Shown: positions 8,685-11,502 of the stretch, one piece after another | Layout of the letters: each line of letters begins with the position of its first letter | Position numbering within the stretch: the stretch's first letter is position 1 | Virus record (IMG/VR): IMGVR_UViG_3300034375_009759 | Location: 1 to 27,152 of that record | Direction: 5' to 3' (one strand) | Length of the DNA stretch: 27,152 nt | Origin: a virus | Made by a program: the position numbers and the translations under genes | The notes under the pieces: generated by a model | The model's input: only the letters and a program-made list of their open reading frames with translations | Databases searched by the model: none | What the model was told of the DNA's origin: nothing

Positions 8685-8966
8685 TCAGATTGTAGACCGG
8701 CCGGCCGGCCGGACGTCTCTCCAATAGATCCAGCCCCGACGGGAGCACTTCGAGCACGCCCAGCGCCCCACATTGTCCCCGTCGTTCATGCCCTTCCCTT
8801 CGGCCGCCCGGGTGTCCACGACGTCCGCGATGGACGGAAGCCGGAGCGGGCGCCGGTCTGCTTCCGCAGACGGCTGGGCCCGGACCTGGTGTGTCTGACC
8901 CGTGCAGAGTCGGCGTGCACAGTCGCGGCCCTCTCCGATCCAGCGGTAGTCCGTATACAGGATCAT
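8685..8966 (-). CDS. Small zinc-ribbon protein (93 aa)
   Basis: The ATG overlaps the preceding stop as ATGA. C16-x4-C21 and C71-x2-C74 make a likely zinc site with the same order and spacing type as the 6451-7122 protein. GRWACSKCSRRGWI is the shared signature. The C-terminus (RDVRPAGRSTI) is encoded by a strong copy of the dispersed repeat. The function is unknown; binding nucleic acid or a partner protein is the usual role of such small ribbons. Confidence 0.66.
   Translation of the reverse strand: MILYTDYRWIGEGRDCARRLCTGQTHQVRAQPSAEADRRPLRLPSIADVVDTRAAEGKGMNDGDNVGRWACSKCSRRGWIYWRDVRPAGRSTI
8696..8714. repeat. Dispersed GGCCGGCC repeat, gene-end copy
   Basis: ACCGGCCGGCCGGCCGGAC spans the 3' end of the 8685-8966 gene, about 30 nt from the start of the antirepressor-like gene. 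It is one of the longest copies, with two overlapping GGCCGGCC octamers. Confidence 0.7.
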
Positions 8967-9751
8967 GCCCCCCTCCTTTGTGCCAGTCGGCGCCGGACGT
9001 GGTCGGCGGGGTCAATCGTGCCGGACAGGACACCGTCCACGATCCGGCGGGCATTGTGGGCGCTCGGGGTCGGTCCCTCCAGCTCTTCGGGGCTGGGGCG
9101 GGAGAAGAAGGGGCTTCGGGGATCTGCGTCCCGTTCGTTCCAGCGGGCTCTGGTGCCGGTCAGGAAGACTTTGACGTCACCGGGGCGGCCGTAGTGCTCC
9201 CAGGCTCCCCGCAGGTCCAGAGTCGGACGCCATCCGGCCGGCCGGCTGGTCTTCTGGCCTTTCTCCGGCTGGGCCTGGGCGTACAGCTTCTGCTGGGCGT
9301 GGATCTTCCGGCCCTTCTCACAGTCGCAGAGGACGCGGACGGACCCGATCTTGATGGGCGCAGCATCGAAGAGGACACGCCCGTCCACGGTGGGGAATCG
9401 ATGCTGGATCAGGGTACGGAAGCCGGTCCCGTGCTCCCGGACGGTCCCATCGTCCTCGAGGACCTCCCCACAGTGATGGCAGCCGCGGGACTGCTCCCGG
9501 CGTTCGCTTCGGAGCTGCGCCTCTACCGTCAGGCAGAGCCCCAGCAGCTCCGGCGCGGCGGGGAACCAGGCGCCCCGGTCCGGGTCGGACATCCAGGAGC
9601 GGGTGGCCGCTTCCAGGACTTCGGTGGCGATGTTCTGGAGGACGTCGCTATATGCGCGTTCTGCGGCGACGTCCCCGGGGCGGGGTACCTTTTTCAAGCC
9701 GGCGGACCGGCAGTAGTCGAAGAGGTCAATGATATCGTCTGGGCTTGCCAT
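8963..9751 (-). CDS. Putative replication-accessory protein with Cys motif (262 aa)
   Basis: The ATG at 9751, behind GGAGG, lies 2 nt after the initiator gene's stop. The first 75 residues (DIIDLFDYC ... ATEVLEAATRSWMSDPDRGAWFPAAPELL) look like the helical domain of phage replication accessory or helicase-loader proteins that follow an initiator. C91-x2-C94 and C142-x-C144 could bind metal. SRPAGWRP (169-176) comes from a dispersed-repeat copy. No ATPase motif is visible, so it is not a DnaC-type AAA+ loader. Function is inferred mainly from position. Confidence 0.5.
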   Translation of the reverse strand: MASPDDIIDLFDYCRSAGLKKVPRPGDVAAERAYSDVLQNIATEVLEAATRSWMSDPDRGAWFPAAPELLGLCLTVEAQLRSERREQSRGCHHCGEVLEDDGTVREHGTGFRTLIQHRFPTVDGRVLFDAAPIKIGSVRVLCDCEKGRKIHAQQKLYAQAQPEKGQKTSRPAGWRPTLDLRGAWEHYGRPGDVKVFLTGTRARWNERDADPRSPFFSRPSPEELEGPTPSAHNARRIVDGVLSGTIDPADHVRRRLAQRRGA

Positions 9752-9753
9752 CT

Positions 9754-10641
9754 CTACACCTCCCACGGTGCTGGGGTTTCGTTTGCTTGCTGGGGTTCTG
9801 GGGTAGGTTCTGGGCGCTGGATTCGTCGGCGGGTTGCCCAGGTTGGGATGCGCTGGTCCGTGTCCTTGACGGCGGGTCTGGACGCCCGGGGAAGCTCCTC
9901 GAGCCAGGAAGTCTTGATCCCCTTCCACCCGCTCTCAATGGCCCGCTCCAGCCCCTGGACCACGTCCTTCCCTTCGCTGTACGCTTGCAGGAGCTTCCGG
10001 TGTGTGCGCTCGATTTGTGCGGGCGACTGTCTCCAGGTCGACCCCGGCCGGACTTCGCACCACGTTGTAAAGGCGTCCGCGTAGCCAGCCGGAAGCCCAT
10101 CCGGGATCGGGAGCGCTGCGGCTTGCTGACGGGTCAGACAGCGGGTCTTCTTTTTAGCCGGTGTGACTTTCTGGGATTTGTTCACAGATGGAGAAGTCTT
10201 GATCTCCTTCAAGTGATCTCCTTCCTGATCTCCTTCTTGATCTCCTTTGGGTACCTCTGTGGTACGGGTGGGGTACCTCTGTGGTACTGGGGTAGTACCA
10301 GGGTGGTACGGGTACCCGTCCCTATGTGGTACTGGTACCTCTGTGGTACTGGTACCAGTGTGGTACTGGTTGGCCCGCAGCCAGTCCAGGTCCAGGGTGT
10401 AGACGTTGGAGCGACCAGGCGCACGGGTGATCTGGATGGCCCCCAGCTGCTCCAGCTCTGCCAGCGCTCGGAGGACTGACATCCGACTGTAGCCGGTCCG
10501 GAGCTGGAGCCGGGGGACCGACGGATAGCAGCTGGCGTTGCTGCCCAGGTGATCAGACAGCGCCAGCAGGACCAGCTTACAAGCCGGGGACATCTCGGCG
10601 CCGAAGACCAGGCGGGCACGCTGCCAGTAAAGCTCCTTCAC
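9754..10641 (-). CDS. Phage replication initiator with N-terminal winged helix (lambda O-like)
   Basis: The GTG at 10641 overlaps the upstream stop as GTGA. Residues about 15-85 (SPACKLVLLALSDHLGSNAS ... RTGYSRMSVLRALAELEQLGAIQI) form a typical HTH_36/winged-helix domain of phage initiators. Residues about 90-140 are low-complexity (PVPHRDGYPYHPG, GDQEGDQEGD) because the DNA there is the repeat array proposed as the origin. The C-terminal half (about 175-260, YADAFTTWCEVRPG ... GLERAIESGWKGI) resembles the DnaT/O-type replication C-domain. An origin inside the initiator gene is the lambda arrangement. It is followed by a likely partner protein. Confidence 0.75.
   Translation of the reverse strand: MKELYWQRARLVFGAEMSPACKLVLLALSDHLGSNASCYPSVPRLQLRTGYSRMSVLRALAELEQLGAIQITRAPGRSNVYTLDLDWLRANQYHTGTSTTEVPVPHRDGYPYHPGTTPVPQRYPTRTTEVPKGDQEGDQEGDHLKEIKTSPSVNKSQKVTPAKKKTRCLTRQQAAALPIPDGLPAGYADAFTTWCEVRPGSTWRQSPAQIERTHRKLLQAYSEGKDVVQGLERAIESGWKGIKTSWLEELPRASRPAVKDTDQRIPTWATRRRIQRPEPTPEPQQANETPAPWEV
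10200..10248. repeat. Four TGATCTCCTTC direct repeats beside the iterons
   Basis: Copies start at 10200, 10214, 10226 and 10238 (spacing 14, 12, 12); the last ends CCTTT. They encode the GDQEGDQEGD run of the initiator. Purine/pyrimidine asymmetry and lower GC than the surroundings would suit the melting side of an origin. Confidence 0.75.
10251..10366. repeat. Putative replication origin: six GTACC-N-GGTAC iterons
   Basis: Six partly palindromic units, GTACC-N5-GGTAC, occur at 10251-10265, 10273-10287, 10295-10309, 10335-10349 and 10352-10366, with one longer unit at 10312-10332. Spacing is 22, 22, 17, 23 and 17. Three units are identical (GTACCTCTGTGGTAC). They lie inside the initiator gene, in the linker after its DNA-binding domain, as in lambda-type origins. 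Binding by the encoded initiator is inferred. Confidence 0.72.
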
Positions 10642-11266: not shown

Positions 11267-11467
11267 TCAGTCTACCGGGTTGATCTGGAAGGTAAAGGGC
11301 TCATCCAGTGCGTTGACCAGCTTCTGTATGGTGCTCAGGCGGACGTCCCCGCCCTTCTGAAGATGATGGAGGGCATAGGTAGACAGTCCAGAACGGCGCG
11401 ACACTTCGCGCATGGACAGCCCCTGCTCCCGGATGGCTTCAACGAGTCTTTGTGTGATGTTTTCCAT
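11267..11467 (-). CDS. Xre-family transcriptional repressor-like protein (66 aa)
   Basis: The ATG at 11467 is chosen because a TTGACC-N17-TACCAT promoter ends 6 nt before it; a TTG at 11485 is the alternative. Residues 5-55 form a canonical Xre HTH (LVEAIREQGLSMREVSRRSG, LSTYALHHLQKGG, STIQKLVNAL). It is divergent from the plus-strand block, whose promoter module copy 2 lies immediately upstream. It is therefore the best candidate to bind the AT-rich repeats there and control both directions. Confidence 0.78.
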   Translation of the reverse strand: MENITQRLVEAIREQGLSMREVSRRSGLSTYALHHLQKGGDVRLSTIQKLVNALDEPFTFQINPVD

Positions 11468-11473
11468 GTGTGC

Positions 11474-11502
11474 ATGGTATTTCAAGATATCAGACGGGTC
11501 AA
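11474..11502 (-). promoter_or_regulatory. Promoter of the Xre gene, likely leaderless
   Basis: On the minus strand TTGACC (11502-11497), a 17-nt spacer and TACCAT (11479-11474) leave only 6 nt to the ATG at 11467. There is no room for a Shine-Dalgarno, so a leaderless mRNA is likely if this start is used. The arrangement resembles the portal gene's. Confidence 0.55.

Follow-up and report, generated by a model that had tools for sequence, protein, structure and literature searches.

A probable lambda-type replication origin inside the HTH_36 initiator gene of an uncultured phage, and covariation between recognition helix and iterons in Phage_rep_O initiators

Introduction

In phage lambda (J02459), interrupted-palindrome iterons are located within the initiator gene itself, in the order of protein domain, iterons, and AT-rich tract. 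The four lambda units, which have been described as hyphenated inverted repeats (PMC6022878), are 18 bp long with CCCTC-type arms, and in the lambda record, they are spaced 20, 24, and 23 bp apart. In the Stx phages, six iterons occupy the middle of the O gene, and the O protein binds as a dimer (PMC7466680). After silent mutation of the Stx iterons, with no change to the protein, transformation by the plasmid was lost, and these mutants constitute an experimental precedent for a DNA-level function of such units (PMC7466680).

Here, we describe an array of this kind in an uncultured phage. The window, i.e., the whole stretch of DNA analysed, corresponds to a 27,152-base IMG/VR virus record, and it very probably contains a lambda-type intragenic origin, which adds an uncultured phage and an HTH_36 initiator to a known kind. 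The window resembles lambda in that interrupted-palindrome iterons lie within the initiator gene in the same order of elements, with 10 bp between the corresponding bases of the two arms and a spacing of about 20–24 bp. It differs in having six cores of 15 bp, whose arms are GTACC, and spacings of 17 bp at two places, and its initiator is placed by Pfam in HTH_36 and not in Phage_rep_O. The origins of the Stx phages P27 and 933W (PMC7466680) have lambda-like iterons, whereas the arms in the window are unrelated to these and its initiator belongs to a different family. An earlier note on this DNA regarded the array as unusual relative to the lambda O sites because it is so short and tightly packed; this view did not survive the comparison, given that the lambda iterons are also interrupted palindromes at the spacing described above, and that the Stx phages have six.

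Results and discussion

Domain structure of the initiator

The gene at positions 9754–10641 on the minus strand, with a GTG start, encodes an O-like replication initiator of 295 amino acids. It matched Pfam HTH_36 at amino acids 16–67 (E = 7.7e-9; 35.7 bits vs the curated cut-off of 25) and PHROG 678, "replication initiation O-like", at amino acids 22–274 (E = 5.2e-17). HTH_36 was the sole Pfam family matched, with no match to Phage_rep_O (PF04492). The structure predicted with AlphaFold2 had a mean pLDDT of 52 and was used only for the domain–linker–domain layout. Its N-terminal block (pLDDT about 60–82) corresponds to a winged-helix domain at about amino acids 12–90 (10372–10608, minus strand), with helices at 19–30, 42–49, and 53–65 and strands at 69–72 and 80–83. 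Foldseek returned weak matches to PDB structures of winged-helix regulators, and phage HTH proteins were also matched by structure. The third of these helices, amino acids 53–65 (10447–10485, minus strand), is the predicted recognition helix according to the alignment. Helices at 171–236, modelled with moderate confidence, define a C-terminal helical domain at about amino acids 171–240 (9922–10131, minus strand), which presumably contacts the helicase loader or the helicase, a role taken from lambda O.

The stretch between the two domains, amino acids 92–171, was of low confidence and predicted to be disordered, and the iteron array occupies its opening part (codons 92–131), in agreement with the earlier placement of the array in the linker-coding part of the gene. 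The units are thus placed where the protein needs only a disordered linker, which leaves the underlying DNA free to obey the rules of a binding site. Directly behind the initiator gene in the ORF list, in the position of lambda P, lies a gene of about 262 amino acids (8963–9751, minus strand), which had no match in Pfam, PHROG, or NCBIfam and is, by position only, a candidate for the helicase loader. Small HTH genes occur upstream of the initiator in the same strand order.

The iteron array

A motif scan confirmed six copies of the iteron at positions 10251–10366. The unit is a 15-bp interrupted palindrome, GTACC-N5-GGTAC, with five copies exact and one carrying a single mismatch. Listed without strand assignment, the units are GTACCTCTGTGGTAC at 10251–10265 and 10273–10287, GTACCAGGGTGGTAC at 10295–10309, GTCCCTATGTGGTAC at 10318–10332 (the mismatched copy, with a GTCCC arm), GTACCTCTGTGGTAC again at 10335–10349, and GTACCAGTGTGGTAC at 10352–10366. 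The earlier note was therefore right about the position of the array, the number of copies, the three identical copies (those starting at 10251, 10273, and 10335), and the palindromic character of the unit. It had written the unit with a single-base spacer (GTACC-N-GGTAC), a form that has no match in the array, the true spacer being N5. It had also given the spacings as 22, 22, 17, 23, and 17 bp; these values stand, but their order from start to start is 22, 22, 23, 17, and 17 bp, because the fourth unit had been anchored on a GTACC at 10312, 6 bp away from its true start at 10318. The two arms of each unit are 10 bp, or one helical turn, apart, and an interrupted palindrome of this form is fit for a dimer.

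When one mismatch or fewer was allowed, the motif had seven matches in the window vs 0.65 expected, and the seventh (10262) overlapped two of the six units. Relative to the reading frame of the initiator gene, the units lie in phases 2, 1, 0, 2, 0, and 1, i.e., in all three phases. When synonymous codons were shuffled with the protein kept, five exact copies were reached in none of 20,000 shuffles (mean, 0.27). The shuffle test and the three-phase placement together imply that selection acts on the DNA and that the array is a DNA repeat written through a coding gene rather than a peptide repeat. The idea that the units are a peptide repeat or the products of slippage, with no function in the DNA, draws on their location in a low-complexity linker and on the neighbouring 12-bp repeats, which are in frame; it is already contradicted by the placement in three phases, the spacing of 22, 22, 23, 17, and 17 bp, and the shuffle result, and a spacing of 17–24 bp is also seen in unrelated genes whose arms differ, which makes this explanation barely credible.

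The adjoining AT-rich tract

On the side of the iterons that encodes the C-terminus, the same side as in lambda, lies an AT-rich tract that we regard as a candidate DNA unwinding element (10160–10250, minus strand). Its GC content is about 0.43–0.47 vs about 0.65 in the surroundings, and its coding strand is purine-rich. For the 70 bp downstream of the array, the GC content is 0.44 vs 0.66 in the 70 bp before it. Within the tract, four direct repeats of TGATCTCCTTC (coding strand, GAAGGAGATCA) are found at 10200–10248 on the minus strand, with spacings of 14, 12, and 12; TGATCTCCTTC had seven matches in the window vs 0.45 expected. The same composition is widespread in Phage_rep_O genes, in which the AT content of the 70 bp after the array exceeded the gene mean in 109 of 113 cases and that of the preceding 70 bp in 102 of 113. 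No DnaA-box-like match was found near the array, and the GC skew, which is uninformative on a linear contig such as this, showed no clear turn there.

The array is very likely a lambda-type replication origin of this phage, situated within the very gene that encodes its initiator. We infer that, in this phage, the initiator binds to the units as a dimer, that unwinding and helicase loading follow, and that the array functions as the origin. The winged-helix domain would bind each GTACC-N5-GGTAC unit as a dimer, with one subunit per arm, and the six dimers on the array would assemble into an O-some, in which the AT-rich, repeat-bearing stretch at 10160–10250 would be strained and opened. The C-terminal domain would then recruit the helicase via a loader, for which the gene behind the initiator perhaps codes.

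Distribution of the layout in related initiators

When viral contigs were scanned for pairs of neighbouring units, 57 stretches were identified, and 21 of the 28 array-bearing ORFs tested matched Phage_rep_O, with five matching HTH_36. Relatives found in this way say nothing about the frequency of the layout because the motif itself selected them. A second collection was chosen by protein only, comprising prophages identified with PHROG 678 and PF04492, viral contigs identified with a profile, and prophages identified with an HTH_36 profile. HTH_36 as a genome-wide query was dropped because it pulls in generic regulators, and a profile built from 11 diverse initiators was dropped as too diverse for the viral scan. 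The array detector accepted arms of any 5-bp sequence that recurred within a gene in the form of an interrupted palindrome, with codon-preserving shuffles as the control; the counts rest on 20–40 shuffles per gene, without p-values, so that individual genes may be false positives, but the totals are not false.

Arrays beyond all shuffles were present in 13 prophage initiators of the first protein-chosen set, in 25 of the 27 members of a single HTH_36 family, whose arms are GTGCA, and in 116 of 150 non-redundant Phage_rep_O genes. In one of the 25 HTH_36 genes (L296), the array lies outside the linker and is probably spurious. In a wide HTH_36 set, which may include non-initiators, palindromic arrays were found in 17 of 56 genes, so the layout is not universal in HTH_36. 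The spacings in the relatives cluster at 17–19 and 21–24 bp, and only nine of the 116 Phage_rep_O arrays are confined to one phase. The arms are lineage-specific and include GTACC, GTCCC, GTTAC, GTGCA, TTAGC, and others. The in-gene iteron design is thus very common and not unusual. Two Phage_rep_O genes (L360 and L406) contain eight units each, with a spacing that alternates near 21 and 27 bp vs the usual 17–24 bp.

The Phage_rep_O phages with GTACC or GTCCC iterons (e.g., L044, L354, and L370) resemble the window in the geometry of arms and spacer, in their often GTACC-type arms, and in the location of the units within the gene, whereas their initiators belong to PF04492 and have an R-X-H helix, in contrast to R-M-S in the HTH_36 protein of the window. 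The nearest named relative of the window initiator is that of Pseudanabaena phage Pam5 (ON014757), with 35% identity over 101 amino acids. The Pam5 gene also contains identical interrupted palindromes followed by an AT-rich stretch, but these are three units of GGGTCAGAATGTGACCC, with other arms in the same place. The Pam5 initiator is a 279-amino-acid HTH_36 ORF (L185, 3920–4756; about 34499–35335 of ON014757), which is unannotated in the deposited record. A single-protein scan for close relatives of the window initiator yielded just three near-identical contigs. Between the window and one close relative (L008), there are 23 differences, none of which fall in the 60 arm positions vs about 1.6 expected, a difference that is not significant.

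Covariation of the recognition helix and the iteron arms

The recognition helix of Phage_rep_O proteins carries the triplet [R/K]-X-H, and residue X is tied to base 3 of the GTACC arm: this base is A where X is P, T, S, or A, and C where X is Q or N. Among 46 genes whose arms are GT[A/C]C, X alone fully separated the arms, and the rule is obeyed by all 79 of the Phage_rep_O genes in which the arms read [GT]T[A/C]C. The mutual information between X and the arm base is 1.0 bit, and the next best column reaches 0.38. When the tree was computed with the helix columns removed, the two traits each changed 11 times, and all eight independent pairs on well-supported branches agree (sign test, p = 0.0078). 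The first residue of the triplet is mostly R where the arms begin with GT and K where they begin with TT, according to a tally made off the tree. The rule was first noticed in 73 genes and then checked on a pooled set of 150, and this enlarged test is only partly independent because the pooled set contains the first 73. These findings are computational evidence suggesting that initiators of the Phage_rep_O type read the iterons in their own genes. No earlier report of the rule was found in the literature searched, which left out most subscription journals, and this may be the new part, one that a specialist may not expect.

This covariation also bears on other explanations of the array. The units might act at the mRNA level, each forming a 5-bp hairpin in a row of such hairpins; the strand does fold better than shuffles (z = −3.8, DNA parameters), as would any row of interrupted palindromes. 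Pairing alone, however, requires neither that the arms be constant across units nor that they change together by lineage, both of which are observed, and it is with a residue of the winged-helix domain that the arm base covaries in the sister family Phage_rep_O; a role as hairpins is extremely improbable. Binding by another phage or host protein, such as the repressor at 11267–11485 or a defence protein, could be imagined because further HTH proteins are encoded nearby. Outside the array, a motif search of the window found no GTACC-N5-GGTAC, the surroundings of the repressor included, and in Phage_rep_O, the arm follows the recognition helix of the initiator itself, so we consider a foreign binder very unlikely. 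The units might instead be operators through which the winged-helix protein autoregulates the transcription of its own gene, with replication starting elsewhere: palindromic sites for a winged-helix dimer would suit an operator too, and covariation shows the specificity of binding, not its effect. Against this, the six tightly spaced units adjoin an AT-rich repeat tract and lie mid-gene rather than at its promoter, like the lambda origin, and mutants show that the same anatomy has origin function in lambda and the Stx phages (PMC7466680; PMC6022878). Autoregulation in place of replication is therefore unlikely. The iteron-type origin inside the initiator gene that the earlier note had proposed is the best-supported reading, in view of the O-like initiator, the selection at the DNA level, the adjoining AT-rich repeats, the presence of the layout in most protein-chosen relatives, and the helix–iteron covariation in Phage_rep_O.

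In a two-family alignment, R53-M54-S55 of the window helix (S52-R53-M54-S55-V56) align with R-X-H of Phage_rep_O. The presence of R53 and the lack of Q or N at X agree with the GTACC arms, whereas M and S are outside the range of Phage_rep_O. An otherwise different HTH_36 phage protein (L041), 39% identical to the window initiator over 83 residues, has a helix in common with it, SRM[ST]V..RAL, and its gene carries three GTACC-N5-GGTAC units; the two initiators may share this helix and iteron trait by descent. The SRM[ST]V helix was also searched for at the DNA level, with a pattern that was one N too long and would miss L041; this gave two new matches, neither of them an initiator. By analogy with Phage_rep_O, the initiator in the HTH_36 family of the window would likewise read its own iterons.

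We lean slightly towards the broader proposition that at least two winged-helix phage initiator families follow a readable protein–DNA code, in which a few residues of the recognition helix would set the arm sequence of the iterons in the same gene, so that protein and origin would evolve as one cassette and origin specificity would be predictable from sequence alone. Where the helix predicts the iteron base, origins could be called and compatibility between phages forecast from sequence, and these genes offer a convenient system in which to study how an initiator changes together with the binding site in its own gene. Because no solved structure was found for this initiator family, the helix code can also guide structural work.

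Other repeats encountered in the motif scans

The motif scans also encountered repeats of other kinds. In MAGs of rumen Bacteroidaceae and Prevotellaceae (L066–L102 and others), GTACCCCTCGGGTAC-type palindromes were paired 23 bp apart on many contigs per MAG; these dispersed repeats, which had no link here to initiators, were set aside as a different thing. In the viral contigs L018, L021, L031, L036, L043, L058, L063, L011, and L040, GGTACC recurred every 11 bp, or one helical turn, and these arrays were set aside as different from those with a spacing of 17–24 bp. In L015, L024, L025, and L037, GTACCAACTTGGTAC or its complement occurred in pairs at a distance of 30 bp that were not spanned by any ORF of ≥80 amino acids, and these pairs are possibly operators.
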